This document shows positions 952 through 20,885 of a DNA stretch of 30,020 bases, piece after piece. A program made the translations under genes and the position numbers. Source of the DNA: a virus. A model generated the notes under the pieces. That model had not been told where the DNA came from. It saw only the letters and a program-made list of their open reading frames with translations, and ran no database searches. Numbering within the stretch: position 1 is the stretch's first letter; every line of letters begins with the position of its first letter. The stretch covers positions 1 through 30,020 of the IMG/VR virus record IMGVR_UViG_3300009497_000027, one strand, 5' to 3'.

Positions 952-3900
952 ATGTCTTTCGACGACTCAGTTCTCAACGACTTAGGAATTAACGACAACT
1001 CAGGCGAAAAAGACGACGGGTTCGAAAAGTTTCTAAGCAAGCCAATCCAAAGGCAGTATCAGCCATTTGGCGGGCCGAAGCCTCAGACCCAAAGCTCAAT
1101 AGCTGAGCCCCAATACGCTCCGCCCGAGCCTCAGCCTCAGCCGCAAGCTCAGCCATATCATAATTTTAATGATTATGATCTCGATGCTTATGAGCAGGCA
1201 AAGAAGCAGCACAGCCAGATTAGTCAGTATGCTCGCGAGAACAAAAAATCCGCGAGTCATTACGGGAGTTTGTACGATGATTTCAAGAAGAAAGAATTCA
1301 CACCCTACTTTGAAAGCATGGGTGGATTCGGAGACTTTGAAACTGACGAGGAGTACATCAGTGCAATCGATGAAATGTACAAATCCGATCTCAAGAACAG
1401 TCAGTCAGAAGATGGATTTTTCGGTGCTTCCGACGCAAAACTTGCGTCCCAAGAAAATTTAAAAAAATACGCATCCTGGAACCAACCAAATGGGATGCGG
1501 GACAAATTTCTCAGGCTAAAGGCCGAAAGGGATAGGCGTAAGGCCACAGCGGAACAGGCAGAGTCTATGGAATATGCTCTGTTCGAACAGATGACCAATA
1601 TCCCAATTGCTCAGCGCGAGGCTTTGGACGCGAGTCTTAAGTCACGAACCGCAAAACCGAGAAGCAAGAAGGCAACCGACGAAATGCTTAACCAGATGCA
1701 GTTCGAGGATCCGGTCGTTGACATGGTCACCGGTGAGGTTATTAATTTAGAAAAGACTGACCCAAGAACTAGCCCGCCATCCGCAGTTAATATGGTTACG
1801 GGTCAAAGGACTCCAGCCGCAGGTAAGCAGGCTAAAAGATTAGAAGCTGCAATGCGTGGGGACATGGCCGGATTCATGAGCCGCAGGGAATCGGTCGCTA
1901 AGGATAGACAACTTCGGGACAAAGGATTCATGTTCTCAAATGGTGGTCAAATTGACGGACGACCTATTGGCATGAGCCGTAAGGATACTGATCTTCTTGA
2001 TCTCGAGGAGATGAAGAAGGCTGGAATGACAGAGTACAAAGGTCAGCCTATTGAACAGGCAATCGAGTCTTTGGGTGGAATGGAGAGAGTAAAAGTCGCG
2101 AAGGTCATGCAATCCGTCTATGCCGCGAAAAGTAATTACGAAGATGTACAGCTTGAGTATTTAAAGAATTCCGGTGGAGCAAAGGGCGATGCCTTGCGTG
2201 AGAAAATGGAAGCGGCCAGGGAAGAAGTAAACAAGACTATTGGATTAGCGGCACAGTTCGGATTGGATAATGAATTATTCGAGCAGGCTGAAACGACTGG
2301 TTGGTTATCTGCTATTGGGAATGCGGTTAAGCGTGGATTGCTCATGAGTGAAATGAGTAATTATACTCCCGACTTTCTAACCAATACATTGGATGCGGAT
2401 GAGATGCAGAAATTCATTGAGATTGCATCTGAAATCGAGGAGTTACCTACGAGCTCAACCATGAAACGGGTGAAGTCAACCAAATCGGATGGCCCTCTCG
2501 ATGCGATAGGAAATCTGTTATTTGATAACCCCGCCGCGATTCCTGAAATGTTTGTGGAATCAATGGCATCATTTCTCCCATCCGCAATTAAATGGATGCT
2601 TCCTACCGCTGCAACAGGAGCATTGGCCGGTTCAATCATCCCCGGAGCTGGAACGGCCGCGGGTGCAACTTTTGGAGCTCGAGCATCATGGGGTACCGCA
2701 TCATTTGTTTTGGAAGCATCGGGCATGGCATTGGAAGGGATGCAGGAATTAGGAATTGATTGGAAGAATCCAAAGATATTTGCGGCCGCATGGACCAATG
2801 AAAGCATAAGAAATAAGATCCAAAAGAAGATGGTTCAGAAGGGTACACCGATAGCGGTCGCCGATATGCTTACGGGTATGATGGCTGGTAAAGTCATGGC
2901 AATTGCGAACCATACCGGTAATGCAATGTTCAAGGGTGGTAAGCTTTTAAATAAGACACAGTTTAATAAAACCGCTGGAGCTGTTCCTCGGTTCACAAAA
3001 TTCCAAAAAACCCGTAATGCTGCGGCCGAACTAGGTGCAGATTCGCTCATGGGTATGTCCGGAGAATATCTCGGACAATGGGCAAGTAAAGAACCTGGCG
3101 AGGATTGGGACTGGGATGCAATTGCCGCTGAAGGAATTGTTGGCGTTGGCCCAGGTGTACTATCATCCGCACTGGAAATGCGCAGTCGAAGCGGAAACTA
3201 TTTTGGCAATGCACCGATTGAAATAACCGGCGAGCAGATGACCGAGACAGGATCCATGGGAACTGTTACCCGTGCCGGATATTCCGCACCTTATCAGACA
3301 TTTAATGATGCCGAATCAATGATGGGGCATCTCGGCACATTGAAGGGGGTTAGTCCAGAATCACTAGAATTTACCCGAAGCTTTTTAGAGCAGATGTACG
3401 CCGCCAAACCGGAAGAGATGGCGAATTTAAAAATCGCATTTAGCCCACGGACTCCAGATTCTAATATGGAAAATCGCGGCACCTTCGAGTCACGCGACGG
3501 CCAGAATTTAATGTACATTAACGAAGAGCAGTTTGCTGCTGACCCTATGGGTGCGTTCATGCACGAATCCGGTCACTTCGCTCGAGTTTTTATTCTATCC
3601 GATTCCGAGCTGATGACATTATGGGACGGCCTTGGTTCTGATGCTCAACTCGAAGCTTATGCTCAATACTTTACAAAAAAACCTGATCTATCTTTTGACT
3701 CACTTCCTGAGAATGAGCAGAAAAAAATCAGACGCGCGTTTGACCGTACTAAAAGAACTGCACCCGACGTTCTAGCTGAGGAGTGGTTTTCATACCAATG
3801 GGGTAGGGTGCTTAATGAGCAGACAGCTGATAAGAATATAGCAAGCAAACTTAAAAGTTTTAAGGACGGAATTTTAAAAGATGCACTCGCACCTTACATC

Positions 3901-6900
3901 GGAACTGAAGATTTAGCCGGATCCACTAAGTCCGAAAAAAACATACTAAATGCACGGATTTTACAATTCCTAGGATACGAGAACGGAATGCCTACCCCCA
4001 AGGTTCCAGACGAAGGAGGCAAGCCCAGTAGCACGACCCCGCAGACCAAGGAGCAGACCCAAAGAAAGCTTAACGCAATGCCGGGAACCCCGCAGGAGAA
4101 ATCCAAAATCGCAAAAGCGGTTAACGCAATGCTCGGCGCGGACATCCTTACGGAAAGCCCGTCATTCTATTCGAATATGAACAGAGCCGCAGCGGTCGCA
4201 GCGTCCAAAGATATCGAGGATATTGAAAAGAAAAAGGAAGATGCGGAAACTGTAGCGGATACACTTAAGGAATCTAATCTTAGACGATTAGAAAAGAAAA
4301 TAGCTAAAAGAAAAAAGACCGATGGTTATGACGCAAAAGATCAACCACAAGACACCCCCTCTCCAGAAGAATTAAATGAGCAACAGCTTAGAGAGGAGTC
4401 GGGTTTTCAACCAAAGCCCAAGCCAGAGGAAATAAGTGAATCACCAGGCGGAAAAGAATTACCTAAAGAATTAGGAACCGTACCACGGGAACCTCAAAAG
4501 TCCGACGGTCTATTTCCAACAAAGCCAAACTCCAAAGCTGCACAAAAAAGAATCAAAAGAGCGGAGAAGAAGGAAGCACAGAAAGCGGAGATTAGGAAAA
4601 AGCGCGATGCTATAAGGAAAGCGAAACAAAAAGAAACAGTCCCATTCCGAGTCGATGAGATTGCTCCTAAAGATTACGAGAAACCTAGAGCTAGTAGAAC
4701 GTTTGACACACCAGCACCAAAACTCGGAACCGAACAGGATAAACTCAATCAACGCACTCCTTCCAAAAATAATACAACCGCTTCGGTTAACCCAAAAGCA
4801 ACAAGCAGAAGCGAGCAGGAAATACTTAAGCTCGATAAAATTCTTCCAAAAACAAAAGAAGAACTAGATCAAATTCGCGATTTAAAGGATCAGTTAAGCG
4901 AAAACCAAGCAAAGTTTGATTCAGTAGTTTCTTTAGACAAAGCGATCGAGGCAGCAGTACAAGAACTAGCGGAAGAGGGCAGCCCAAGCATTACTCAGAT
5001 CATTTCCAAAGTTCTTAACCTAGAAACATTACTCAAGCTGTCCCCCATCTCATTTGTATCCGAAATTGAGAAAGCGATGAACCCTACCGCCAGCCGATCC
5101 AAGGTTCCAAGCTCCAAGGACATTGAGGACATGGCAACCGAGGCGAGGGAGAGAATCGAGGATATTAAAGAATTGCTCAACCTCAGACTCGCGGAGATCG
5201 ACCGGGAAATCGCAAGCCTTGAGAAAAGTCCAGCAGCTCAACCCCAGCCAGCGGCAGGGTGGCAAAAGTCCACAGCACCCACTCCAGCAAAAGTGTTTGC
5301 AGGCATTGGTAGTAGAGCGCTCCCCCCTAGTGCTCAGAAAGAAGTTGCAAAATTATTCAATCAAAAAGGCCAGTCGAAACCGTCAAAAGTTCATTCAGGA
5401 TCCGCTAAAGGTTCAGACTATTTATTTGAAATGCTCGCTGTGAAAGCAGGAATTGCTGTTGAAGCTCACACTTTTGAAGGCCATCGAGGCACAGCAGGCG
5501 ACCCCGCTAATTTCAAGAAGCATTCGCAAGAGGAGCTAAATAAAGCCGACTCTGCTTTAAAAAAAGCTAACGAGACATTAGGTCGTACCTTCCCCGCCAA
5601 AGACCAACATACAAATAATTTACTCCGGCGTAACTACTACCAAGTAGTGGACTCAGATCAGATAATAGCCTTTGCACCCTTACTAAACGGACTTGTTCAA
5701 GGAGGCACTGGCTGGGCTGTTCAAATGGCGATTGATATGGGTAAAGAAGTCCACATCTTCGACACCAATACAGCTCAGTGGTTCAGCTGGCCCCAGCCAG
5801 CAGCCCAAGGCCAAGGGCCGAAGGTCAGATACCTCGGCGGTGTAAAAGCAGTTAATGAAGCTGAGGCTAAAGGTGAGGGTGTGAGCACTTTAAGAAAAGC
5901 GGGTGAGCAGCATTTTGGAAACCCTTTTAGCCACCTCGACAATTCCAGAGACACTACTAAAACCGGAACCAGAACAGAAGCTGTGGAAAAATATAAGCAG
6001 TGGTTAGCCGGTACCGATTTTAAAAATGTAAAACAGGAGCGTAGAAAGTGGGTTATAGATCAAATTGAGTCAGGAGCGTTAGAAGGTAAGGACTTACTCT
6101 ACTATACAAAACAGCAACCTAATCACGCAGAAGCTCTTGCTCAGTTCATCGCTAGCAAAGGCCAAGGGCCGAATGCCGGAGCCCAAGCAGAAATAACCGA
6201 GCTCCAGTCAAAGCGTAAGCTTGTAAAAATGTACCTCCACTTCATCGCCCCCGAGGAGGCATCCGTTGATTGGAAGGATGTACCGCATAACTTAATGACC
6301 TACCGCAGATATAAGATGGTAAAGGGCAATAAAGTATACAGCCCGGAGTACAGTAAGTTCCAACCGGTCACCTATGGCATGCTCGCTAGTATGAAGGATT
6401 GGCAATTTAAAGATGACAAGTCCACAGAATACCCGAACATAGAATATAAAGTAAGTCGTCAGGAGCGGGATAAGACCGATCTAAGGAGCCCACAAGAATA
6501 TCTTTGGGATTATGTAAATCACGAATTTAAACCACCACCCGTTTCCGATAAAGATAAAGCAGAAATAGGAAAACCTTTTTACGGAGGACTAACCGAAAAC
6601 CAATACCGTATGAAACTGGAAGCTATAAAAGCTTCTGCTATGTTCACTAAGCAACAGGATATTGGTAAGGAGCCTATGGGTTCTGCTCGTTGGGAAGTGG
6701 AAAATGATATTAAACAAGAAGCCCGACGCGGATACCCCAGCGGTTTTACCACAGAGCGCGGAGCAAATTTTGGAGCGGTTATTGCCGAAAGAATTAGGCA
6801 AAAGGGTTTGTCCGGAAAAGTAAAATCAGATGGTACAAAAGCATACGCAAATTTCGATTTAGAAACTCTCGAGCCTACAATTACCGACGTTGTAGCACTG

Positions 6901-9900
6901 ATGATGGCTAACGGCCGAACATTAGAACTGCTAGGTGATCCAAGCGATTCCATGAAAGATTTCGACCACATGCTTTTTGTAATCGCACGGGAAGAAATGA
7001 AATCCAAACTTCTCGGGGAGAAGGATAAAGGTGGTGTTCCAAGCGATCTGGAAAATCAATTTGAATATGCAGAAGAAGACGGCGATCCGTTTATAAAAGT
7101 TCAGCCCGGTGCAACACTAGCTAAGACTCTGCTTGGGGTGTTGAGTACAAAAGCCCGTCTCAAATTTGAAAGAGATTATTTAGATTACATCGTAGAAAAT
7201 ACGCAACTTTCCGATTCAACGTCTACCAAATTAAATTTAGAAATGAGCAAAGAAGGGATGCGTCTAGACTCCCTCTCCGGAGACAACCCCAAAGTAGCTC
7301 TTGAAAAACTTGGAGAATACCTAGACTCCATTAAAGAAAAACGCGGAGTTGATGTTCGCGGTAAGCTTGTACCAATACCTAGAAAAGTTCAGAAAAGTCT
7401 AACAGAAGCCTATGAACTTCTCCGTGCAAGAGTTGATAACGAGAAGTACTTAAGCGACCAGTTGAACGGTCACACAATAGAAGTTATCGGTGGAGTCTCC
7501 AAACCTCAGTCAAAAACAGTTTCAAAGTTCCGAGTAAAACCGGAAGATGTTTATGATTTCAGAAGACCGTTGAGTCGGACATCCGAAAACATACCCGCAA
7601 AAGGTGATCACGGAGCTTTTACCGCCGGCGATATGTATAAAACCTTTGATGTCATGACAGCCTTTTCTAAAAGGCGTGAATCTCCTGAGCTTGTAGCCGA
7701 CATGATCATGGGTGCATCGACGGGATTCGAAAAAGAAAGAACTAATGTTGGAAAATCCGAGACTCTACCCAATAATCCAATAAACATGGATCGGGCTGAA
7801 GCGGATCTACTATCATCAACAGATATTAGTGCAGTCGATCTAGCTAACTGGTATTTAGGAGCTAAGGGTTCTGAAGTTAAGAGAATGGCTGACTTGCAGA
7901 TGACCCCGTCATCTAAGGATAATAAACAACTACCAGGCGGCCTTGGCGAAGGACTCCTTCCCTATGTCTTTAGAGATTTCATAACTGCAATGTATGAAAA
8001 TTTAAATATCAAAGATTTAGATCTTAAGATCAAAGACGCAGAATCTGATAAAACCTTTGATTGGACTTATACCGAAGGTCGAATGATGATGGGTGGAGAA
8101 CTTGTCGATTTTAACATGTTCACAGACAAAGAAGGTATGATGCATCCAGAAGTTATGGAAGCACTGACCCGACCCATTGTTCAGGCAGTTTTAGATGCTG
8201 AAGGCATTGATGTATACGATCAGTTTGACGCAAATTCAGAAAACATTCTTCAGCGGGATACCCAGAAAGCCGAAAGCTTTGACAAAGATGACTCCGCGGA
8301 GATGCAGACTGAAGCAGACGACACAGATTCAGGTGCTCAAACATCAAAAGTTGAAGTTAACCCCGTAGAACAGGAATCTTTAAACCAGTTCCAAAATGAC
8401 AAAAGACAGGAGCTTGGTGTTGATCCTGACCCAGTAAATAAAAACCCGGTCGAAAAACCAATTACGCTATCGGATCTTGTTAAGTCAAATTTGAAAGACA
8501 AAACTCCTGAGGAGATAAAAGCTTTCACCGACGACTCAATGACTGACAGCTTTAAACAAGCTCAGTTAGCAGAAAACATAAAAGAATTTGAGGAAACCTT
8601 CACCCCCAAGAAAAGCAAGAGCAAGAACCGCACGCTCAATTCCGATGCGGGCAAGCAAGAGATGCCGATGTCACCTTTAAATGTCTATCGAAGCACCGAC
8701 GCAGACTTTGGGTTTGAAGAGGATTTTAGATTAGAAACAACCGTAGGCCAGGAGCTTAAAAAATTAGGCATTAAAGTAGACAAAAACGGTGTCCCCTATA
8801 CTGACAATAAAGTCGCAATCAAAAAAGGGTTCCCGATGATTTTGTACCGGGGGGTAAAATACAACCCGAAAACCAAAACTACAGGTCGGCCAGCCGAAGG
8901 AGTTTTCTTCACTCGAGAATTTGAGACCGCAGAGGCGTATGCCAACGGCTATAAGATGTCTGGTAATTACGAAGCGGACATGAAGGCCATGGACAGCTAT
9001 CGGGATGAGCTCAAAGCCAACGGTGAAAAATTAATAGTATTTTCTTACCTCTACCAATCTCCCGGTAATAGTATGACTAAAAAAGCTGGGATTGCGCCGA
9101 AACAAAAAGAGCTAACCGTCGGTACTATGGAAGGGCCAGAAGACTATAATGCGATGCTCGAGTTTGGCGAATACACTTTTGGAAGCGGCACAGGTGAAAG
9201 ATCTTATGTTTTAAAAACATCTCAGTTATCAGGTTTAGATGGTTTGCTAGCTGCACACGAAATCAATGCGGATTCGAGTATTAATGAAGATGGTAGCACT
9301 CCTAAACTAATACCTTTTAATGAAATACCTCAGAATGGTCTAAACCCTCGAGAGTTAGATAAGTTTGAAAGAGAAGACACAGAGAGAAATCTTCAAAACC
9401 GCACGCTCAATTCCGATGCAACGCTGACCAGCGATGTTAACCCAAATCTTGCGAAGGCAAACCTTCTCAGCAGAATTGCGGGCGATAGCGAATTAAAAAA
9501 GAATTTCGAGGAATGGCTTAAGGACAAAAAGGATTCAGAATTAGCCGGTAGCTTTATGATGAGCTTTGTTGACCAGGCGGATCCATTAAAGAAAGTACAC
9601 CGCTCACTATTTGAAACACTCAAAGCAGCGGGAATGGACATCACTAAAGGCCCAATGCGTAGTCTTTACAATATGCTCAATGTCCACGGCAAATGGCATC
9701 AGTATTTCGGAAAAGGGTATGACACCGTTGAACAGGCAAGGATCCAATATATCCAGCCAATTAAGGATGCGATGCTTAAATACGGTATCGATCAAGGTAC
9801 CTTTGGAAATTACCTCCTTGCCCGTGCTGCACCGAGTAGGAACCAACATCTCAGGGATAAGGTCAAAAGACTACAGAAGGAGGCCGAAGGATTGACCGGG

Positions 9901-12783
9901 ACTGAGCGTCAAACTGCGTTGAAAGATATTCAAGAAGTGTATCTCAACGAAGATGGTACCATAAAAGATTCCGGAATATCCGATCAGGCAGCGTATAATT
10001 TAATTACTGAGTATGAAAATAACTCAAAGACCGGGGCTAATTTCGTAAACTTTTTAAATGAAGCGTTGGATCCTTATTACAACATGAATAAGGAATCTAT
10101 ATCCATGCTCAGGGAAGCCAGCATGATTAGGGAGAGCACGCAGCTTGATGGTGTCCAGGAGGGTTTAAGTGAATACGACCGCATGGTTGGTGCGATGTCC
10201 AAGATTGACCTGGCAAATCCAAACTCAGACTTTAATTTTGCCGGGTCAAAAGTTAAACTCTCCGATCCAAAATACTCATACTCTCCCATGCAGGGATTTG
10301 AGGGGGAGACCGAAGCATTCTTTGATGCCGAGCGCGCATGGGAAGAATTAGGAAAAGGACAGAATAGTTCTGGGAAAGGTTGGGATCAGCCAAAATCTGA
10401 ACTGCTACGCGATCCAGCATTTGGTCGGGTAAAAGGAACCCGCGGACCGAACCCCGACAGCGTATTAGCAAATGCAATTAATCAATTCTTTGATTCCGCA
10501 ATTCGAAGTCATAAGAATGAAGTCTCCCGAAGCTTCGGGGAAATGTTCCAGTTGATGAGGTCTATTGCGTATCCCGATAGAGAAAATCCTTACGAACCGA
10601 ACGATCCAGAACTTAAAATTGCTTACGGTCAGATGTCTAAATTACCGGAAGAGCAGAAGAAGAAAATTAAGGAAGAATTCGATGAAATCTTTGAACAGGA
10701 TTTTAATGAGACCTCGGAGAAAAACACGCTTAAGTTTGACGACGAGTATGTAACCGATGGGAATACGGGAGAATTTGTAGCTAAAAGAAAAACCTTAAAT
10801 GCTAAGTTCAAACAAGATCCGTTAGTATTTGTTTACCGAGTAAACGGAACCCCAATGTTCATTAAATTTAAGAACACCACGAAGGGTACACGCATGGCTC
10901 GTTCGATGAAGAATTTAAAGTACGAGTCTCTCCCTTCAGTTCTTAAATATTTCAACAAGATTACGAGATTCATGGCTCAAATGTTTACATCGATGAATCC
11001 GGCTTTCATCATTCCCAACTTCTTCCGGGATTTAGGAACGGCATTCATTCATTTAACTGAGGACGATAAAAAGAAACTGGTTAAAGATGTATTCAAATTT
11101 AAGAATTTAAAATGGATAAAGTCTATTGCACAAGCTGAGCTTTATATCAGTCAGGGTAAAGGCCCCATGAAGGCTTTGAATATTAAAGAAACAGAAAGAC
11201 TTAAAGGACAAACTGAAGCTCAGTACGCACAGGCAATTTTAAAGCGTGGAAATAAGATAGAAATGTATGCCTACGCAAAAAGAAACGGAGCAAAGATTGG
11301 ATATGTTCGTCATGACACAGTTCCCGAATTGATTCGTAATATAAAGAAGGAAACCGGCAAGAGCGAAGGTGCAACCAAGCGTCGTCTTAAAAACGTACTA
11401 TCATATGTTGATGCCGCAAATACTGGTGTAGAGAATTCTGTTCGTATGTCCACATTCTGGGCAGCGATTAAAAATGGATACACCCCTCAAGAATCAGCCA
11501 CCATGTCCAGGAATATAACCGTGGACTTCAATCAGAAGGGTGAACTGACACAGGCATTTGGATCACTCTATGTATTCTTTGGTGCGGCAGTTAATTCAAC
11601 ACACCGCTTCATGACTACCTTAAATCGTAGAAGCCCGGCCGAGCGAGCAACATTAATTGGTGGAATTGCAACCGCATCATTCCTAGTCGCAACCTTTAAC
11701 CGTTTAATGGATGACGATGAGGATGAGGCTGTACCAGATTACGATACAATTAGCAGTTATAAAAGAGACACTAATTTAATCATGCCAATCCCAGCAGGAC
11801 TGCCAGGTTTCTTTAATGATAAAAAAGACACAGGGTATTTCAGTATGCCGCTTCCTCTTGGGTACAATTTATTCTGGTCAATGGGTCAGGTAGTAGCGGA
11901 TACATTTGCAAATAATTACGGAGGCATTCGTGGAGGATCAGGAGTAATGGAAGGTGCGAATCGGTTATTGGAAAGTTCAATGAATGCATTTAATCCAGTC
12001 GGTGGTGCAAGTATTGCGACAATCGGAACTCCAACCTTTGTCACTCCAATTATTGAATTATGGGCAAATAAGAATTTCATGGGTCGTGAAATCAGATATA
12101 AAGATGATCAATTCGGAGTACCAGAACCTGGACATATGCAGGATCCAAAAAGCACACCCGCACATTGGAATGCATTATCAAAAGGATTAAATGAATTCTT
12201 TGGTGGGAATGATGTAATTAAAGGATCTTTATCCGGAGCCTTTGGGGCTAAGAATCCGTTAATGTACGATCAAGATTCTGATATAAAATTTGATATCTCA
12301 GGAAATCAATTCAAGCATATGTTCTATGGATACTTAGGTGGTCCAGGACAGCTTTTGGACACTGCATTTGGAGGCTTATTCTCTGCGGTAAAAGGTAAAG
12401 CATCTATCGATAATGTTGGTCAGGTTCCAATTATTAACCGATTCATGCGAGGCACGACCTACGGCTCGCACACCAGAGAATTGTACTACAACCTTCGGGA
12501 CACAGTTAAGACCGCAGAGAGTGCAGTTAAGGATGCTAAGAAGATTAGTCCGAAAGCATACAGCTTAGTGAACAACGACCTTCGACCATTACTCTCAATC
12601 AATAGCCAATTAAAAGCATTCGAAGCCCAAAAGAATAAGTTCAGCAGACTTAAGTCAAAGGTCGAAAGTGCAAGTAACCTGACAGATGCGCAAAAAACGC
12701 AACGCATTGCGGACATAGAAGAGAAAGAGTTAAATATGATGGTTAAGGTCATCAAGAAAGCACAGTCGCTTGGAATTTCATGA
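952..12783 (+). CDS. Giant polyvalent phage protein (zincin, SLOG, DUF4326, ART-like, LPD38-like)
   Basis: A single 3943-residue protein. Visible parts in order: a Pro/Gln-rich N-terminus; a hydrophobic Gly/Ala-rich segment at about 528-577; a zinc-metallopeptidase motif HESGH at 871-875 with a possible third ligand at E943/E944; a disordered Lys/Glu/Pro linker at about 1017-1440; a SLOG/DprA-like nucleotide-binding fold with GIGSR at 1450-1454 and GGTGW at 1584-1588; a DUF4326-like domain with GNPF at 1656-1659; a long region I do not recognise; an ADP-ribosyltransferase-like domain with YRG at 2632-2634, FFT at 2652-2654 and GERSY near 2748; and a C-terminal region from about 3348 resembling large polyvalent-protein-associated domain 38. 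Polyvalent proteins are known phage and conjugative-element products delivered into the host with DNA to counter defences or reprogramme it. The stop overlaps the portal start. Fold assignments are from motif recognition only. Confidence 0.88.
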   Translation: MSFDDSVLNDLGINDNSGEKDDGFEKFLSKPIQRQYQPFGGPKPQTQSSIAEPQYAPPEPQPQPQAQPYHNFNDYDLDAYEQAKKQHSQISQYARENKKSASHYGSLYDDFKKKEFTPYFESMGGFGDFETDEEYISAIDEMYKSDLKNSQSEDGFFGASDAKLASQENLKKYASWNQPNGMRDKFLRLKAERDRRKATAEQAESMEYALFEQMTNIPIAQREALDASLKSRTAKPRSKKATDEMLNQMQFEDPVVDMVTGEVINLEKTDPRTSPPSAVNMVTGQRTPAAGKQAKRLEAAMRGDMAGFMSRRESVAKDRQLRDKGFMFSNGGQIDGRPIGMSRKDTDLLDLEEMKKAGMTEYKGQPIEQAIESLGGMERVKVAKVMQSVYAAKSNYEDVQLEYLKNSGGAKGDALREKMEAAREEVNKTIGLAAQFGLDNELFEQAETTGWLSAIGNAVKRGLLMSEMSNYTPDFLTNTLDADEMQKFIEIASEIEELPTSSTMKRVKSTKSDGPLDAIGNLLFDNPAAIPEMFVESMASFLPSAIKWMLPTAATGALAGSIIPGAGTAAGATFGARASWGTASFVLEASGMALEGMQELGIDWKNPKIFAAAWTNESIRNKIQKKMVQKGTPIAVADMLTGMMAGKVMAIANHTGNAMFKGGKLLNKTQFNKTAGAVPRFTKFQKTRNAAAELGADSLMGMSGEYLGQWASKEPGEDWDWDAIAAEGIVGVGPGVLSSALEMRSRSGNYFGNAPIEITGEQMTETGSMGTVTRAGYSAPYQTFNDAESMMGHLGTLKGVSPESLEFTRSFLEQMYAAKPEEMANLKIAFSPRTPDSNMENRGTFESRDGQNLMYINEEQFAADPMGAFMHESGHFARVFILSDSELMTLWDGLGSDAQLEAYAQYFTKKPDLSFDSLPENEQKKIRRAFDRTKRTAPDVLAEEWFSYQWGRVLNEQTADKNIASKLKSFKDGILKDALAPYIGTEDLAGSTKSEKNILNARILQFLGYENGMPTPKVPDEGGKPSSTTPQTKEQTQRKLNAMPGTPQEKSKIAKAVNAMLGADILTESPSFYSNMNRAAAVAASKDIEDIEKKKEDAETVADTLKESNLRRLEKKIAKRKKTDGYDAKDQPQDTPSPEELNEQQLREESGFQPKPKPEEISESPGGKELPKELGTVPREPQKSDGLFPTKPNSKAAQKRIKRAEKKEAQKAEIRKKRDAIRKAKQKETVPFRVDEIAPKDYEKPRASRTFDTPAPKLGTEQDKLNQRTPSKNNTTASVNPKATSRSEQEILKLDKILPKTKEELDQIRDLKDQLSENQAKFDSVVSLDKAIEAAVQELAEEGSPSITQIISKVLNLETLLKLSPISFVSEIEKAMNPTASRSKVPSSKDIEDMATEARERIEDIKELLNLRLAEIDREIASLEKSPAAQPQPAAGWQKSTAPTPAKVFAGIGSRALPPSAQKEVAKLFNQKGQSKPSKVHSGSAKGSDYLFEMLAVKAGIAVEAHTFEGHRGTAGDPANFKKHSQEELNKADSALKKANETLGRTFPAKDQHTNNLLRRNYYQVVDSDQIIAFAPLLNGLVQGGTGWAVQMAIDMGKEVHIFDTNTAQWFSWPQPAAQGQGPKVRYLGGVKAVNEAEAKGEGVSTLRKAGEQHFGNPFSHLDNSRDTTKTGTRTEAVEKYKQWLAGTDFKNVKQERRKWVIDQIESGALEGKDLLYYTKQQPNHAEALAQFIASKGQGPNAGAQAEITELQSKRKLVKMYLHFIAPEEASVDWKDVPHNLMTYRRYKMVKGNKVYSPEYSKFQPVTYGMLASMKDWQFKDDKSTEYPNIEYKVSRQERDKTDLRSPQEYLWDYVNHEFKPPPVSDKDKAEIGKPFYGGLTENQYRMKLEAIKASAMFTKQQDIGKEPMGSARWEVENDIKQEARRGYPSGFTTERGANFGAVIAERIRQKGLSGKVKSDGTKAYANFDLETLEPTITDVVALMMANGRTLELLGDPSDSMKDFDHMLFVIAREEMKSKLLGEKDKGGVPSDLENQFEYAEEDGDPFIKVQPGATLAKTLLGVLSTKARLKFERDYLDYIVENTQLSDSTSTKLNLEMSKEGMRLDSLSGDNPKVALEKLGEYLDSIKEKRGVDVRGKLVPIPRKVQKSLTEAYELLRARVDNEKYLSDQLNGHTIEVIGGVSKPQSKTVSKFRVKPEDVYDFRRPLSRTSENIPAKGDHGAFTAGDMYKTFDVMTAFSKRRESPELVADMIMGASTGFEKERTNVGKSETLPNNPINMDRAEADLLSSTDISAVDLANWYLGAKGSEVKRMADLQMTPSSKDNKQLPGGLGEGLLPYVFRDFITAMYENLNIKDLDLKIKDAESDKTFDWTYTEGRMMMGGELVDFNMFTDKEGMMHPEVMEALTRPIVQAVLDAEGIDVYDQFDANSENILQRDTQKAESFDKDDSAEMQTEADDTDSGAQTSKVEVNPVEQESLNQFQNDKRQELGVDPDPVNKNPVEKPITLSDLVKSNLKDKTPEEIKAFTDDSMTDSFKQAQLAENIKEFEETFTPKKSKSKNRTLNSDAGKQEMPMSPLNVYRSTDADFGFEEDFRLETTVGQELKKLGIKVDKNGVPYTDNKVAIKKGFPMILYRGVKYNPKTKTTGRPAEGVFFTREFETAEAYANGYKMSGNYEADMKAMDSYRDELKANGEKLIVFSYLYQSPGNSMTKKAGIAPKQKELTVGTMEGPEDYNAMLEFGEYTFGSGTGERSYVLKTSQLSGLDGLLAAHEINADSSINEDGSTPKLIPFNEIPQNGLNPRELDKFEREDTERNLQNRTLNSDATLTSDVNPNLAKANLLSRIAGDSELKKNFEEWLKDKKDSELAGSFMMSFVDQADPLKKVHRSLFETLKAAGMDITKGPMRSLYNMLNVHGKWHQYFGKGYDTVEQARIQYIQPIKDAMLKYGIDQGTFGNYLLARAAPSRNQHLRDKVKRLQKEAEGLTGTERQTALKDIQEVYLNEDGTIKDSGISDQAAYNLITEYENNSKTGANFVNFLNEALDPYYNMNKESISMLREASMIRESTQLDGVQEGLSEYDRMVGAMSKIDLANPNSDFNFAGSKVKLSDPKYSYSPMQGFEGETEAFFDAERAWEELGKGQNSSGKGWDQPKSELLRDPAFGRVKGTRGPNPDSVLANAINQFFDSAIRSHKNEVSRSFGEMFQLMRSIAYPDRENPYEPNDPELKIAYGQMSKLPEEQKKKIKEEFDEIFEQDFNETSEKNTLKFDDEYVTDGNTGEFVAKRKTLNAKFKQDPLVFVYRVNGTPMFIKFKNTTKGTRMARSMKNLKYESLPSVLKYFNKITRFMAQMFTSMNPAFIIPNFFRDLGTAFIHLTEDDKKKLVKDVFKFKNLKWIKSIAQAELYISQGKGPMKALNIKETERLKGQTEAQYAQAILKRGNKIEMYAYAKRNGAKIGYVRHDTVPELIRNIKKETGKSEGATKRRLKNVLSYVDAANTGVENSVRMSTFWAAIKNGYTPQESATMSRNITVDFNQKGELTQAFGSLYVFFGAAVNSTHRFMTTLNRRSPAERATLIGGIATASFLVATFNRLMDDDEDEAVPDYDTISSYKRDTNLIMPIPAGLPGFFNDKKDTGYFSMPLPLGYNLFWSMGQVVADTFANNYGGIRGGSGVMEGANRLLESSMNAFNPVGGASIATIGTPTFVTPIIELWANKNFMGREIRYKDDQFGVPEPGHMQDPKSTPAHWNALSKGLNEFFGGNDVIKGSLSGAFGAKNPLMYDQDSDIKFDISGNQFKHMFYGYLGGPGQLLDTAFGGLFSAVKGKASIDNVGQVPIINRFMRGTTYGSHTRELYYNLRDTVKTAESAVKDAKKISPKAYSLVNNDLRPLLSINSQLKAFEAQKNKFSRLKSKVESASNLTDAQKTQRIADIEEKELNMMVKVIKKAQSLGIS
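5242..5801 (+). repeat. SLOG domain bounded by short direct repeats
   Basis: CCCCAGCCAGC occurs at 5242-5252 and again at 5791-5801, 549 bases apart (183 codons, in frame). The repeats encode QPAA-type linker on each side of the SLOG-like domain. The match is short, so chance similarity of Pro/Gln linkers is possible. Confidence 0.55.
5807..6173 (+). repeat. DUF4326-like domain bounded by 16-bp direct repeats
   Basis: AAGGCCAAGGGCCGAA occurs exactly at 5807-5822 and 6158-6173, 351 bases apart (117 codons, in frame), coding for a KGQGP-like linker on each side of the DUF4326-like domain. The left copy follows directly on the right-hand repeat of the SLOG module. Confidence 0.75.
8626..9419 (+). 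repeat. ART-like domain bounded by 23-bp perfect direct repeats
   Basis: A perfect 23-base repeat lies at 8626-8648 and 9397-9419, 771 bases apart (257 codons, in frame). Both copies encode NRTLNSDA and lie exactly at the two edges of the ADP-ribosyltransferase-like domain. Identity extends through third codon positions, which points to DNA-level duplication rather than protein-level conservation. Confidence 0.85.
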
Positions 12784-14801
12784 AACAAACAAATTTACGA
12801 CTTACAAAAAAACAGGAGGAGAAACTTGTAAAATACGCACTAGAGCGTGTTGAGCAGTTAAAGGAGGATAATAGGGAGCGCATTGAGAACGATAAAATTT
12901 CGTGGAAAATGTATCACAACGATCGTACAGATCGGGTAGGGTACGACGGAATATTTAGTCACTCCAATCTGTCAGTCCCTATGACCAGCCTCGTGGTCGA
13001 TCACTTCATGGCTCGTGCTGAGGATGAGATCACTGGCACATCTCCATATTTTAAATTCGAAGCTCAGGGAGCAGGCGATATCGATATGGCTGAGACCTAC
13101 GATAAATACTTTAATTGGAAAATTGAGGATCAAGCAAATACCAGAGAAAGACTCGAAGAATCATACCTCCATTTATTTATCCAAAGAGCCTTAGTCCTGA
13201 AAGCTGTGTACGAAGAAGATGTATCTACATGGTATGATTATGAAAGAAATGGACTCTTTAATTTACAGACCGGTGCATTTGAAGATATCCCAGGCCAAGG
13301 ACCTATAATCGAAGGCGAAGACCAGTTCATTCCAGAAATGAACCCAATGACCGGAGAATCAGAACTTCGACTTGCATCCGATCCTAGTTTTGTAATGACT
13401 CCAGGTGTACATGAATTCCAACCACTTCCGGAAGGAGTCCCAACCCAAATGGTGAAGTACAAAGGCCCAAGGTCGGAGGTCGTGGACTCAGATCGTTTCC
13501 TATGTCCCAGCCATGCAGAATCTATTCAAGATGCTGACATCGTTGTTGAAATGTATGACAAAGATTTGAATTGGGCTAAAGAAATGTTCCTTGAGCGTGA
13601 ATGGTTAAGCTTTGGGGATTTTTACAATTTATTAAATAAAGATGCTAATCCAAGAAGTCCGATTGAAAAGAATGAGGAAAGAACTGAGAATTTAGATTTT
13701 GATTCCGAAGAAAATCCGAGCATGCAAGTTCTTGAATGTTGGATGAAGAGAGATGTTCTCGGAACAGGACAACCTCAGGAATTTTGTATATTCATAGACC
13801 CAGAAACTGAAAAACCAATTTTCTATGAATTCGTAGCAAAATTAACTCCAGATAACCATATTCCATATACAGTAGTATCTATTGGAAAAGAGCGTAATAA
13901 ATGGTGCGGATATAGTTTACCCGAAAGAATCCGTTCTTTTCAGGAATATGTAGACAAACAATTTAATTCCCAAAGCTACCGTAATGAACTCGCTGCGAAT
14001 CCGATCATCGGTGTCAACCCGCAGGCCGTGGAAGATGAGCCTGAGGATGTAGAATTACATGCTGGTAAGATATTTGAATTGAAGGATCAATATAGCATTG
14101 ATGACTTTATGACCTTTGCCGCTGTGCCTAATGTCGATATCCGTACCCAGGATCTAATTGATTTTGTATTTGGAATTGTTCAGCTCTGGTTAGGTGTTTC
14201 CAATATGGCTCAGGGAGATTATCAGGCATTGGCTCCTGCTAATACAGCGACTGGAGTAGAAGCAACATTGCGCGAGGCATCCAAGATTGGTCGCCGATGG
14301 ATGCGTAGAATTGTCCGCGGATTTGAGGATCATTTGACTAAACTTGTACAAGTATCCATGGCCACGATTGATGAGGAAGAAGTCTTTGAATACATGGAAG
14401 GAGATGTCCGTGCATTCGGTGTTATGTCTCCCGATGCAATTAGAGATATCGGAATCAATGTTCGGGTCATACTGTCTCAAGACCAAGGACAGCGAGCTAT
14501 AGAAAAAGCAAATTTAGCATTACAGACACAGGATCGATACTTCCAATCTCCACCAGAGATGCGCCCATTTATGCGTCCTATGCTCAAGCGTATTCTTGAT
14601 GCCATGGGATTTGAAAAGACTGATGAATTACTTCCTCCCGAAGCTCCGGCTGATCCAAAATCTGAAGCTGAAATTGCTAAGATGTTAGGTGACAATGCAG
14701 CGCAGGGCGGAGAGAGTCCTGAACCAACCGATGGCGTTCAAGCAGCAACTGCTGGTATGGGTAATAGTAACCCACAAGGCATGAACCAATACCAAGGATA
14801 A
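12780..14801 (+). CDS. Portal (head-tail connector) protein
   Basis: 673 residues, a usual length for podovirus-type portal proteins. It starts with a basic/acidic helical segment, then a stretch with WKMYHNDRTDR and an MTSLVVDHFMAR helix typical of portal N-termini. A long acidic insertion (about 150-230) is followed by a beta-rich middle part. A conserved-looking C-terminal half contains RSFQEYVDKQFNS, NPIIGVNP and the GVEATLREASKIGRRWMRRIVRGFE helix region that lines the channel in such proteins. The tail is low-complexity, rich in Pro, Ser, Gly and Asn. The ATG overlaps the stop of the polyvalent gene (ATGA), indicating coupled translation. The portal forms the dodecameric ring at the capsid vertex through which DNA is packaged and ejected. 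The call rests on family resemblance and on a scaffold/capsid pair downstream. Confidence 0.85.
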   Translation: MKQTNLRLTKKQEEKLVKYALERVEQLKEDNRERIENDKISWKMYHNDRTDRVGYDGIFSHSNLSVPMTSLVVDHFMARAEDEITGTSPYFKFEAQGAGDIDMAETYDKYFNWKIEDQANTRERLEESYLHLFIQRALVLKAVYEEDVSTWYDYERNGLFNLQTGAFEDIPGQGPIIEGEDQFIPEMNPMTGESELRLASDPSFVMTPGVHEFQPLPEGVPTQMVKYKGPRSEVVDSDRFLCPSHAESIQDADIVVEMYDKDLNWAKEMFLEREWLSFGDFYNLLNKDANPRSPIEKNEERTENLDFDSEENPSMQVLECWMKRDVLGTGQPQEFCIFIDPETEKPIFYEFVAKLTPDNHIPYTVVSIGKERNKWCGYSLPERIRSFQEYVDKQFNSQSYRNELAANPIIGVNPQAVEDEPEDVELHAGKIFELKDQYSIDDFMTFAAVPNVDIRTQDLIDFVFGIVQLWLGVSNMAQGDYQALAPANTATGVEATLREASKIGRRWMRRIVRGFEDHLTKLVQVSMATIDEEEVFEYMEGDVRAFGVMSPDAIRDIGINVRVILSQDQGQRAIEKANLALQTQDRYFQSPPEMRPFMRPMLKRILDAMGFEKTDELLPPEAPADPKSEAEIAKMLGDNAAQGGESPEPTDGVQAATAGMGNSNPQGMNQYQG

Positions 14802-15035: not shown

Positions 15036-16547
15036 ATGCGCAAGTACCGCAACGGTAAGCAATCTCGTGAACCGAGGCAGCTTTCAAAATACTCTCCCGA
15101 ATACATTCAGTATCGGGGAAACCGTGGCGGCTACTCGGTTAAAGTCGGATTGTGCGATATAACCGGTGACGGAGATGCGGACACCATATCTGTCGCATGG
15201 AGAAACCCAGCAAATGGAAAAGTAGAAAACTGTACAGTCAGTATTCCTCAGGCTCAGGCTCCTACATCCGGCCCGTCAAATCTAACCGCAACCGAAGCAG
15301 TTCCAGCCAGCGGCCCATCGAATCTAATTGCAAGCGAACAACTTGTCGCACCAACTTCCGGCCCATCAAATCTAACCGCAAGCGAAAGCGTTCCAGCCAG
15401 TGGCCCAAGCTCATTAACCGCAAGCGAAAGCGTTCCAGCCACAGGGGATGAGTCTAGTTTTTCCATATCATCAACAGTATCGTTAGATATGATTTATGTA
15501 GAATCAGGCACCTTTACCATGGGCAGTCCAACTACAGAACCAGATAGGGATGCTGATGAAACCCAGCATCAGGTTCAACTAACAAAAGATTTTTACTTAG
15601 GCAAATACGAGGTCACACAGGCACAGTACGAGGCCGTGATGACAGGTAATACGGATGGATTGAGCGCCACGCCAAGCACTTGGCAAAATAACCCGAACCG
15701 TCCGGTGGAAACGGTTTCGCATGATGATATTCAAATTTTTCTTTCGAGGCTGAATAACCAGCAATCCGCCAACATACCAGCGGGCTGGGCTTATGTCCTG
15801 CCCACCGAATCACAATGGGAATATGCCTGCCGCGCTGGCACGACCACGATGTACTCATGGGGAAACATAATTACCAGTTCGAACGCGAATTATAATCTTT
15901 CTATCGGCCAGACTAGTAATGTGGGCAACTATGCCGCGAACCCATGGGGCTTTTTTGATATGCATGGAAATGTGTGGGAGTGGACCGCGGATTGGTACCA
16001 AGCGGCTTATCCCACCGGCAACCCAGTAATTGATCCCACCGGTCCGGCCTCGGGCTCGCTTCGGGTCGCCCGGGGTGGTTCCGCGTACAACAGCGGGCTG
16101 AACCTGCGTTCTGCTACGCGCAACAACCAATCCTCCAACACCACCCCTGGCTACCGTACCCACCGCATTGGCTTCCGTGTGGCTTTAACTCAAATCGAAA
16201 GCGTTCCAGCCACAGGCCCAAGCGGATTGACCGCAACCGAAGAGTCAACAACTATTACTTTTGATGCAGATAACCCAGCAACACTTTCTGGTCATACAGA
16301 CTCTCAAAGCCGTCAATGGTTTGTCACATACTCAAGTGTTGGAGGTTATGTATTCAATGTAAATCCTAACGGAACAGCTTATATTACTGACCCGAATGGT
16401 GTTTCTACTGATGTCACAGACTCAAATACAACAGTTCCTGACACCGACGGCTTGTCCATGATTTCTAATATCTCCGCTTATGACTATTCAGGAAACGGTG
16501 ATACAGAAGTCGCCAGTTTTGATTACATACCTACTCCAGCTCCATAA
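15036..16547 (+). CDS. Tail fibre/receptor-binding protein with FGE-sulfatase (C-type-lectin-like) domain
   Basis: 503 residues. A short basic N-terminus is followed by an EF-hand-like loop (DITGDGDADTI), four SGPSNLTAT-type repeats (15260-15445), then a formylglycine-generating-enzyme/sulfatase-modifying-factor domain at about 149-384, one further repeat, and a beta-rich C-terminal domain. The domain shows classic family landmarks: MIYVESGTFTMGS, YLGKYEVTQAQYEAVM, LPTESQWEYACRAGT, NPWGFFDMHGNVWEWTADWY and a RGGS...IGFRVAL ending. In phages this fold normally serves as a lectin-like binding head rather than an enzyme. Codons are visibly more G/C-rich inside the domain than in neighbouring genes, and 21-base direct repeats flank it, both signs of lateral acquisition. 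Its last about 40 residues resemble a retroelement variable region. The N-terminal plan matches the fibre gene at 17389. Confidence 0.85.
   Translation: MRKYRNGKQSREPRQLSKYSPEYIQYRGNRGGYSVKVGLCDITGDGDADTISVAWRNPANGKVENCTVSIPQAQAPTSGPSNLTATEAVPASGPSNLIASEQLVAPTSGPSNLTASESVPASGPSSLTASESVPATGDESSFSISSTVSLDMIYVESGTFTMGSPTTEPDRDADETQHQVQLTKDFYLGKYEVTQAQYEAVMTGNTDGLSATPSTWQNNPNRPVETVSHDDIQIFLSRLNNQQSANIPAGWAYVLPTESQWEYACRAGTTTMYSWGNIITSSNANYNLSIGQTSNVGNYAANPWGFFDMHGNVWEWTADWYQAAYPTGNPVIDPTGPASGSLRVARGGSAYNSGLNLRSATRNNQSSNTTPGYRTHRIGFRVALTQIESVPATGPSGLTATEESTTITFDADNPATLSGHTDSQSRQWFVTYSSVGGYVFNVNPNGTAYITDPNGVSTDVTDSNTTVPDTDGLSMISNISAYDYSGNGDTEVASFDYIPTPAP
15260..15445 (+). repeat. SGPSNLTAT coding repeats, fibre gene 1
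   Basis: Four tandem units of 14-15 residues with core SGPSNLTA(T/S)E and Val-Pro linkers, followed by a partial unit (ATG). A fifth unit (ATGPSGLTATE) reappears after the FGE domain at about 16208. The units are homologous to the array at 17653-17982 in the second repeat fibre. They probably form an extended linker or stalk. Confidence 0.9.
15425..16216 (+). repeat. 21-bp direct repeats flanking the FGE domain
   Basis: A perfect 21-base repeat beginning CGAAAGCGTTCCAGCC lies at 15425-15445 and 16196-16216, in frame and coding ESVPATG on both sides. The 771 bases from one to the next hold the whole FGE-sulfatase domain. Confidence 0.88.
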
Positions 16548-17218: not shown

Positions 17219-17392
17219 ATGCCCCTCGTATCTCGCTGGGGCTCGGTAGTAACCACGGTTCCTCCAACCGAGCCAGGGGTTAATAACCCGCAACCTGCAA
17301 CCCTTGTCCTCAGGCCGTTACCTATTGACCAACCGTCAAAGGCCGAAAGCCTTGGGTCGAAGGTTGGAGATCCTGCACCTATTAAAGCATGA
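17219..17392 (+). CDS. Short Pro-rich protein, overlaps next fibre gene
   Basis: 57 codons from ATG at 17219 to TGA at 17390-17392. The product is Pro-, Val- and Thr-rich, begins MPLVSRWGSVVTTVPPTEPG and ends DPAPIKA. The stop overlaps the ATG of the 17389 gene in an ATGA arrangement like that used by the giant/portal and other pairs here. An AAGG lies 11 bases before the start. The overlap and the filling of an otherwise empty gap support it as real. It has no recognised domain. Confidence 0.6.
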   Translation: MPLVSRWGSVVTTVPPTEPGVNNPQPATLVLRPLPIDQPSKAESLGSKVGDPAPIKA

Positions 17393-18126
17393 GCAATACC
17401 CGACTATATAAGAATGGCAGACCGCCAAGTAATCCGAAGAGTTTAACTCGTCGGGATATAGTTCGGGATTCAGCTAAATTTAAAACTGTTGAAAGGGAGC
17501 ATGATCCATTAAGACGGTTTGGAGGATCTGTTGGGGCGGCTTATATTGACAGCGATGGGGATGGTTCACTTGATAAAATTATACGAGTAACCCGTGGTGG
17601 ATCTCTTGGTATATCAAAATATCCGGAAACACCTGTCTCAACTGACCCACCAGTATCTGGCCCAAGCGGATTAACTGCAACCGAAGCAGTTCCAGTATCT
17701 GGCCCAAGCGGTTTAACTGCAACGCAGCAGATTGACCCTCCTGTATCTGGCCCAAGTGGTTTAACCGCAACCGAAGCAATTCCAGCATCCGGCCCGAGCG
17801 GATTAACTGCAACCGAAGCAGTTCCAGTATTTGGCCCATCAGGATTAACCGCAAGCGAAGCAATTCCGGTATCTGGCCCGAGCGGTTTAACTGCAACCGA
17901 GAATGCTCCAGCATCCGGCCCAAGTGGTTTAACTGCAACCGAAGCAGTTCCAGCATCCGGCCCAAGTGGTTTAACTGCAACCAAATTAACTTTAAACATT
18001 GCTCCGTTATCAACTGATCAGAATGCGCTTGTTGCAACTACTCCCGCGGTTGGAACTATTAAGTACAGCAGTGATGTTGATCGTTTGTTTATTTACGACG
18101 GAACTGACTGGCACAACTATCTATAA
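17389..18126 (+). CDS. Repeat-stalk fibre protein with EF-hand-like loop
   Basis: 245 residues. A basic N-terminus is followed by an EF-hand/dockerin-like calcium loop (DSDGDGSLDKI), eight units of about 14 residues with core SGPSGLTAT (bases 17653-17982), and a C-terminal module of the form GTIKYSSDVDRLFIYDGTDWHNYL. That terminal module recurs in several neighbouring fibre genes. The architecture parallels the FGE-domain fibre at 15036 but without an inserted lectin domain, so it looks like its empty sister. It overlaps the next gene by one base (TAATG). It is probably a structural fibre or spacer protein. Confidence 0.8.
   Translation: MSNTRLYKNGRPPSNPKSLTRRDIVRDSAKFKTVEREHDPLRRFGGSVGAAYIDSDGDGSLDKIIRVTRGGSLGISKYPETPVSTDPPVSGPSGLTATEAVPVSGPSGLTATQQIDPPVSGPSGLTATEAIPASGPSGLTATEAVPVFGPSGLTASEAIPVSGPSGLTATENAPASGPSGLTATEAVPASGPSGLTATKLTLNIAPLSTDQNALVATTPAVGTIKYSSDVDRLFIYDGTDWHNYL
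17653..17982 (+). repeat. SGPSGLTAT coding repeats, fibre gene 2
   Basis: Eight tandem units of about 42 bp coding for (V/A)SGPSGLTATEAVP-like segments. Unit 5 has Phe for Ser and unit 2 has a QQIDPP linker. DNA identity between units is high, making slippage or recombination likely, including with the array at 15260-15445. Confidence 0.92.
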
Positions 18127-18452: not shown

Positions 18453-18968
18453 ATGGCAAATATTTTACAACAAATCGGAACCGCAGTAGGCGGGAAATTA
18501 GCAGAAAAACTAGATTTAGCGGGGGGTACAGTAACCGGATCCTTGGTTATACCAGCACCCACAGCTGAATCTCAAGCAGCTCAAAAAGCTCAGGTTTCTG
18601 CTTTAGAATTATCTATCGGTAATTACGCAACCTTTGTCTCTGCGATTGCTGATGTAACTGTTACATATTCAGATACCGCGGCTAATATTCAATTAATTAG
18701 TGGTGCGGCAAACGGAACCATAGCGGTTTCTAGTGACACTAATGTAATTTACTACGCTGACGGTGGTGTTTGGAGCATCAGTACCATTGACAATATTAAG
18801 GCGGACGCTCTTGCGGCTGGTCAGACATTAAATATTTCAGGAGACACCGAATCAAACATCCGGTCGCGATCCAGCGATGCTACCGGTACTATCATGTTCG
18901 GAACTGATACCTACGATCTCTACATATTCGATGGGACTGATTGGCAAACTTATAACAACGACGCATAA
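18453..18968 (+). CDS. Tail fibre protein with shared N-terminal anchor
   Basis: 171 residues. The N-terminus MANILQQIGTAVGGK matches MSNILSQIGAAVKGK of the fibre at 21700, suggesting a common attachment peptide. Next come a GGTVTGSLVIPAPT fibre strand, a helical SQAAQKAQVSALELSI segment, and two copies of the beta module seen in neighbours (GTIAVSSDTNVIYYADGGVW and GTIMFGTDTYDLYIFDGTDW). The stop overlaps the next ATG by one base (TAATG), so this anchor protein may assemble with the following LamG fibre. The structural role is inferred from fibre motifs. Confidence 0.82.
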   Translation: MANILQQIGTAVGGKLAEKLDLAGGTVTGSLVIPAPTAESQAAQKAQVSALELSIGNYATFVSAIADVTVTYSDTAANIQLISGAANGTIAVSSDTNVIYYADGGVWSISTIDNIKADALAAGQTLNISGDTESNIRSRSSDATGTIMFGTDTYDLYIFDGTDWQTYNNDA

Positions 18969-19750
18969 TGAGCGATTTAAACGTATATACTACAGCAGAA
19001 ATTAACGCGCTAACCCCGATTACTGGTGACCTGGTTGTTGATTCAGATACTAATCAAATCAAACTGTATAATGGAACAGCATGGAAAGCATTTACTACTG
19101 ACAGTCTTGGGATTGCGAATCAGTACAGCGTACAATATGACGGTGTAAATGATTACGCTACATTAGGTAGCACCATAAGTTTTAGCGGAGAATTTACAAT
19201 CAGTACATGGCTAAACTTTGGAACTTTATCAGGAAGTCTGCAAGTATTTTTTGGGGAGGTTGGTTCTTATATCTACATGATGTACAACGGGGCTAACTCT
19301 ACTCTTTATTTTGTACCTGCTGCTGGTCAGACTGGTATAAATACATCCGTAAGTTCGTGGAACGCCTCGGAGTGGCATCATTTTATGGTCACTAGAAATA
19401 GCTCTAATGCTATTACTTTGTATGTTGATGGTTCTTCTGTTCAAACAGGGTCTAATTCAAACACTTTGCAGTTTAGATCATTTGGTCAAAGTAATTATTA
19501 TTACACAGGATACATTGATGAGTATGCGGTTTGGGATAGTGATCAAAGTGCAAATATCGGAGACATCAGAGACTCAACTTTGGGTACTCCTAAAAATTTA
19601 GATGCTATGAGTACTAACCCTTTACATTGGTGGAGAATGGGTGATAATGATTCAGGACCAGGAACAATTATTACTGATGTAGGTTCAGCTACTACAAAAG
19701 TAGATGCAAGCCTCGTTGGTTCTGTTATTTCTTCTACTACTGCTGCTTAA
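18968..19750 (+). CDS. LamG/concanavalin-A-like lectin tail fibre protein 1
   Basis: 260 residues. The N-terminal adaptor module (GDLVVDSDTNQIKLYNGTAW) is followed from about residue 52 by a LamG/concanavalin-A-like jelly roll: YSVQYDGVNDYATLG, FTISTWLNF, WHHFMVTRNSSNAITLYVDG, YTGYIDEYAVWD and PLHWWRMGD. Such domains bind carbohydrates, so this is probably a receptor-binding subunit. It is followed two bases later by a 79-residue acidic protein, and the pair is repeated by the next two genes. It has no visible catalytic motif. Confidence 0.88.
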   Translation: MSDLNVYTTAEINALTPITGDLVVDSDTNQIKLYNGTAWKAFTTDSLGIANQYSVQYDGVNDYATLGSTISFSGEFTISTWLNFGTLSGSLQVFFGEVGSYIYMMYNGANSTLYFVPAAGQTGINTSVSSWNASEWHHFMVTRNSSNAITLYVDGSSVQTGSNSNTLQFRSFGQSNYYYTGYIDEYAVWDSDQSANIGDIRDSTLGTPKNLDAMSTNPLHWWRMGDNDSGPGTIITDVGSATTKVDASLVGSVISSTTAA

Positions 19751-20006: not shown

Positions 20007-20885
20007 ATGACAACTATAGATACAATCGCAGACAGAAGCACCGGGACTACGATCGCGGGCAAGGCATACTTCGAAACCTCGACGAATCAATTCATCGTTT
20101 ATAATGGAAGCTCTTGGATCGAACTCGATTCCGATGGCGTTGGCGTTGTCGCGGTCTACGAAAACCGCTGGGGCGCAAGCTTTGATGGTAGTAATGATTA
20201 TTTATCCGTAACGCAAAGCAGTGCGATTAACATATCGGGAGACATAACTTTATCAGCTTGGGTAAAAAGAACTTCAACCAGTAGTTACAACGCAATATAT
20301 ACAAAGCGAGAGGTTGGCGGTTCTATGAATTATCAACTTACAATTAATAATTCTAATGGTCAGCTTGGTTTAGGTCACTCAGGAGGTTCTTGGGTGTACA
20401 ACACAACAACAACACTTTCTACAAACACATGGTATCATGTTGCTGTTACCGTTTCAAGCGACACGGCTCAGTTCTATGTGAACGGAGTTGCTAAAGATTC
20501 GTTTACGGGAATCTCTATAACCGCCACCACTCAAGACCTAGCTATAGGATCAACAATTGGTTATAATTATTTTGGCGGCAATATAGATGAAGCGGCTCTA
20601 TGGGATTGTGCATTATCCGGACCCGACATAGCAAAAATTTACAACGGAACCGCTCCAAACGGAAAACCTACAGATCTAACCAAAGCAACATCGTATGATA
20701 CCGATCGCACCGCGAATCTTGCAGGCTACTGGAGAATGGGAGATGATTCAAGCGATACAGCAACCTCTGGCGGATCCATCGCAACCATAACCGACTCAAG
20801 CGGAAATGGAAATGATGCGGTTCAAGCAACTGCAAACAACCAGCCTACATTCTCAGACTTAACCGGTGAATCGATTTACGCATAA
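20007..20885 (+). CDS. LamG/concanavalin-A-like lectin tail fibre protein 2
   Basis: 292 residues, built like the 18968 gene. An adaptor module (GKAYFETSTNQFIVYNGSSW) precedes a LamG domain with WGASFDGSNDYLSV, ITLSAWVKRTS, WYHVAVTVSSDTAQFYVNG, YFGGNIDEAALWD and LAGYWRMGDDSSD, closing with ITDSSGNGNDAVQ. The two fibres share fold and landmarks but differ clearly in loops, so they may recognise different glycans or act as co-fibres. It follows the 79-residue gene by 14 bases with an AT-rich leader and no Shine-Dalgarno sequence. Confidence 0.88.
   Translation: MTTIDTIADRSTGTTIAGKAYFETSTNQFIVYNGSSWIELDSDGVGVVAVYENRWGASFDGSNDYLSVTQSSAINISGDITLSAWVKRTSTSSYNAIYTKREVGGSMNYQLTINNSNGQLGLGHSGGSWVYNTTTTLSTNTWYHVAVTVSSDTAQFYVNGVAKDSFTGISITATTQDLAIGSTIGYNYFGGNIDEAALWDCALSGPDIAKIYNGTAPNGKPTDLTKATSYDTDRTANLAGYWRMGDDSSDTATSGGSIATITDSSGNGNDAVQATANNQPTFSDLTGESIYA

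Follow-up and report, generated by a model that had tools for sequence, protein, structure and literature searches.

A variable-region-like segment at the end of a phage FGE-type lectin domain, probably carried on an exchangeable cassette

The 30,020-bp virus fragment studied here (the window) encodes an FGE-type C-type-lectin (CLec) domain whose end resembles the variable region (VR) of a diversity-generating retroelement (DGR). CLec and FGE-type targets of such elements are established in phages and bacteria (PMC6328139, PMC8144416, PMC10743442). The locus raises the question of whether a DGR shaped this end and, if so, whether one serves it still.

A lectin-fold domain next to the portal gene

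The window contains a capsid gene and an SU10-type portal gene (12780-14801). Relatives whose portal is 95-99% identical to this one are common in IMG/VR, and records of this clade, which is probably marine or estuarine and podovirus-like, reach 68-71 kb. A search of known phages found no relative of the portal, and only distant matches to the FGE domain. The gene that adjoins the portal gene, at 952-12783, has a product of 3,943 aa, which contains an LPD38 domain and matches DUF4326 marginally.

The 503-aa protein that includes the lectin domain has a conserved N-terminus, 14-residue (42-bp) repeats of the GPSNLTATE type, the FGE/CLec domain itself and a small C-terminal domain (Table 1). The domain matches the PF03781 profile at 155.5 bits against a cut-off of 23.3, and its AlphaFold model has a pLDDT of 94.6; the best solved structures found with Foldseek are PvdO (5hha), TvpA (2y3c, TM 0.82) and FGE. 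So clear a match to the Pfam FGE-sulfatase family is what an ordinary FGE-like enzyme domain, with an end varying by drift, would give, but we find that account scarcely credible. An active FGE enzyme has two active-site cysteines near its C-terminus, and neither of the window residues aligned to Cys336 and Cys341 of human FGE is a cysteine; the domain is fused to repeat linkers inside a phage structural cluster, and the codon pattern of its end is non-random (see below). Because the positions of the active-site cysteines are not occupied by Cys, the domain is more likely a binding module than an enzyme, and by analogy of fold and family it may bind a receptor.

Two near-identical phages (L232 and L167) encode the same N-terminus, the repeats and a comparable C-terminal domain without any FGE domain between them. 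In the window the domain is flanked by the two copies of a 21-bp direct repeat, inside the 42-bp linker repeats. To judge from this absence in near relatives and from the direct repeats in the linker, the FGE domain is a mobile, swapped cassette. Another phage, L001, whose portal is 99% identical, has at the same place an FGE domain 68% identical to that of the window. Elsewhere among viral contigs, related FGE domains terminate large proteins (in L002 and in L005, the latter with a near-identical copy, L008) and make up a lipoprotein-like protein in L003; those of the window, L001, L002 and L008 cluster together with support of 99. No second copy of the window's own cassette was found in the collections searched. 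GC content is 60% over the domain's final 257 bp, against 44% across the window. As a separate observation, L003, a contig listed as viral, has two FGE-domain genes side by side (6341-8821), the first with a lipoprotein-like start.

Table 1. Positions of the lectin-domain gene and of the features within it
Feature	Position in window	Strand	Remark
503-aa gene	15036-16547	+	follows the portal gene and one small ORF
21-bp direct repeat, left copy	15425-15445	+	CGAAAGCGTTCCAGCCACAGG
FGE-type C-type-lectin domain, PF03781	15486-16187	+	residues 151-383; lacks active-site cysteines
Homology island common to L003 (core also to L001)	16050-16187	+	third bases conserved, codon positions 1-2 varied
VR-like core, RGGS to IGFRVA	16071-16184	+	RGGS starts at 16071, IGFRVA ends at 16184
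GCG (Ala350) replacing Trp	16083-16085	+	
TAC AAC AGC	16086-16094	+	first three template-Asn columns
TCC TCC AAC ACC ACC	16131-16145	+	in a loop that exceeds that of 175/204 homologues by 4 residues
TAC CGT ACC CAC CGC	16152-16166	+	template-Asn columns around a fixed Arg
21-bp direct repeat, right copy	16196-16216	+	

The variable segment and its codons

The first-pass annotation had described a retroelement-like end at 16071-16187, and its bounds, its three runs of codons and the GCG at residue 350 all read as it gave them. Its placement of the segment where DGRs put a VR in this fold is borne out by alignment: the last ~115 nt of the domain match the VRs of real DGRs in relatives, exactly where the DGRs of these homologues put them. 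As in known DGR targets, the VR lies at the C-terminal end of the CLec fold and has codons of the AAY-derived type.

Relatives supply positive controls for this pattern. At ten loci (L094, L107, L113, L115, L137, L154, L019, L020, L039 and L040) a template lies nearby, and where it disagrees with the VR the template base is nearly always an adenine (e.g. 16/17, 20/21 or 26/30), mostly in AAC codons at the same columns as in the window. A Verrucomicrobia MAG (L121, 10001-12514, and L336) has a DGR with an FGE-type VR, a template with 16/16 mismatches at A and a reverse transcriptase (RT) between VR and template. RTs also accompany the FGE-type targets of viral contigs L017, L019, L020, L039 and L040, and in all of these except L017 a template was found.

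Ten columns were fixed in advance from the templates of these relatives (codons starting at 16086, 16089, 16092, 16101, 16116, 16122, 16152, 16158, 16161 and 16164). Nine of them are NNC in the window, against 4.0 predicted from the domain's own synonymous usage (P = 0.001), in a test limited to ten columns and few sibling sequences, with only 4/10 window residues having a free third base; L001 and L003 each have NNC at 8/10. The AAC-derived pattern thus goes beyond codon usage. Two codons, ACG at 16116 and CAA at 16128, are at odds with an AAC template. The earlier worry that C-ending codons are merely common in this part of the gene was put to the test. In the same stretch 17/22 variable codons end in C, compared with 6/23 constant ones (Fisher 9e-4, the variable set including loop codons picked by eye), and the contrast persists among residues with a free third base (Fisher 0.014, on the same partly hand-picked set). 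Simple C-richness is insufficient to account for the pattern, given this contrast and the expectation from codon usage.

Comparison between siblings points the same way, with the proviso that L003 was chosen for it after its similarity had been noticed. Between the window and L003, 76% of codons within the variable part have the same third base, as against 40% of those elsewhere in the domain (Fisher 2.4e-5), and between L001 and L003 the figures are 90% and 42% (3e-9); window and L001 show a weaker, similar trend (76% vs 61%, p = 0.08). Among 595 control pairs from genomes without a detected RT the largest such excess is 27 points, and none reaches the L003 comparisons. When only replaced codons are counted, the third base is kept between window and L003 in 14/17 within the VR and 12/64 elsewhere in the domain (2e-6), and between L001 and L003 in 17/18 and 18/72 (7e-8), while window and L001 alone give p = 0.02. 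The corresponding figures are 48/48 and 59/104 for DGR paralogues, and 166/438 and 603/1552 for pooled paralogues from genomes without a detected RT. At the ten template-Asn columns, differences at codon positions 1, 2 and 3 number 8, 8 and 1 between window and L003, and 7, 10 and 0 between L001 and L003. An adenine-templated footprint is thus common to the window, L003 and L001; in the L002 and L005 siblings it is weak or absent, with most of the signal missing.

The main rival explanation dispenses with any DGR, past or present: recombination among FGE genes would have brought in the shared tail, and diversifying selection on ligand contacts would have altered codon positions 1 and 2. The cassette does move, no machinery was seen, and the footprint is partly present in genomes without a detected RT. 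C-enrichment at these columns occurs there too, more weakly (48% vs 24%), and one pair of paralogues (L087) mimics the footprint, with the third base changed at only 1/10 template-Asn columns. Because of these two observations, either the footprint is not exclusive to DGRs or some of the MAGs without a detected RT are incomplete. Selection on point mutations, however, should also make use of third-position changes (as in codons for Lys, Gln, Glu, Met and Trp), and in the L001-L003 comparison the third base stays the same in all but one of the 18 replaced codons, as in true DGR pairs. We consider this explanation unlikely.

Two features of the window depart from what mutagenesis of adenines would give. 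The first-pass annotation had remarked that Ala350 (GCG) in place of the usual Trp is not explained by adenine changes, and this is correct; among 204 homologues, alanine at that position is unique to the window. The length of the loop is matched by one other homologue only, and one further homologue has a loop longer still. Relative to template-like homologues, therefore, the window VR differs by more than adenine substitutions at constant length, and the Trp-to-Ala change and the four extra codons cannot come from adenine mutagenesis of templates like those of relatives.

Searches for a template and a reverse transcriptase

The DGR interpretation offered at first pass thus holds for the position and footprint of the VR. 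Its other half, the machinery, is unsupported: the RT and near-copy template that it proposed to look for were not found in the fragment, among 50 clade records (RT), in IMG/VR pattern scans (template) or in a sample of 1,175 genomes from three phyla (VR near-copy). The window encodes no RT, and a scan of it for a template returned the linker and other low-identity repeats but no copy of the VR. Five of the 50 clade records are 68-71 kb long, and the fetched parts of these five contain no cassette; the records of L001-L008 also gave no RT. IMG/VR was scanned with exact patterns five times for a template or a related VR; none of the scans yielded a template, and the last matched L001, L003 and L004 only. 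VR-containing DNA had no VR-length match in 388 Verrucomicrobiota genomes (window query) or in 395 Bacteroidota and 392 Planctomycetota genomes (L001 query), and the Asn-template pattern was absent from the same 388 genomes. In all fetched loci, near-copies of the window, L001 and L003 VRs were limited to those VRs themselves.

Near-identical contigs have identical VRs (L003/L004 and L005-L008). This is uninformative as a test of activity, as the true DGR contigs L019/L020 behave in the same way.

A VR served at present, by a DGR in an unsequenced part of the genome or in trans from the host or another phage, with the VRs of the window, L001 and L003 converted from related templates, would explain an island with kept third bases that is limited to the VR between otherwise diverged genes. 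The record is a 30-kb fragment of a phage whose clade has records of 68-71 kb, and remote DGR targets are known and are missed in fragmented assemblies (PMC8144416). Against this stand the lack of an RT in the clade and sibling records just described, the lack of a template pattern in IMG/VR, the Ala that replaces Trp and the extra codons of the loop, and we regard current service as quite improbable. Similarly improbable is a common diversification service, in which one DGR borne by a host or another element would rewrite in trans the orphan FGE-tip VRs of several unrelated marine phages.

A frozen or fading target as the preferred reading

The window VR is likely to have been a DGR target in the past. 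The reading that we prefer, with a probability of about 60%, is that it makes up the part of an exchangeable FGE-type CLec cassette that does the binding, and that a DGR shaped this tip before its arrival in this phage or outside it. In an ancestor or another element, retrohoming from a template rich in Asn (AAC) codons would have diversified the end of the domain, the cassette then belonging to, or being served by, a DGR. Recombination in the repeat linkers would subsequently have moved the cassette between phages and into the window phage, where its tip probably contacts the host surface, while the link to the DGR would have been lost. The window VR would later have changed in ways outside adenine mutagenesis, and such changes make a frozen or fading target likelier than an active one.

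A real footprint would mean that binding tips shaped by DGRs can outlive their retroelement, or part from it, and pass from phage to phage as cassettes; searches for RTs would then underestimate how far DGRs reach. Such tips can be detected by the third-base test without a template. An orphan, mobile cassette bearing a VR may be new, a claim that has to wait for a complete genome.

Known systems resemble the window in the domain and differ in the machinery. The FGE-type DGR targets of L019/L020 and L039/L040 are homologous to the window domain (42-43% identity) and their variable columns align with it, but in them an RT and a template lie no further than about 2 kb away, whereas the window has neither. 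TvpA of Treponema denticola (PDB 2Y3C; PMC6328139) is an established DGR variable protein with its own template and RT; the window domain, by contrast, is internal in a phage gene, with no template or RT found. TaqVP, the variable protein of a Thermus aquaticus prophage DGR (PMC6328139), is by its description like the window domain in being an FGE-subtype CLec with AAY-encoded variable residues and no FGE catalytic triad, and differs from it in machinery just as TvpA does.

A second gene of the window, at 17389-18126, has about eight copies of a 42-bp repeat of the GPSGLTATE type, which is also the linker that surrounds the FGE cassette. Two laminin-G/ConA-like lectin proteins are encoded at 18968-19750 and 20007-20885, and near relatives match this stretch in pieces only, which suggests a region of exchanged binding modules. 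Among known phages, the Microcystis phages LMM01 and MaMV have an FGE domain distantly related to that of the window (about 38% identity). The FGE domains of PHROG phrog_18508 and of Microcystis phage records are labelled "kinase"; as the fold is that of FGE, this label looks wrong.
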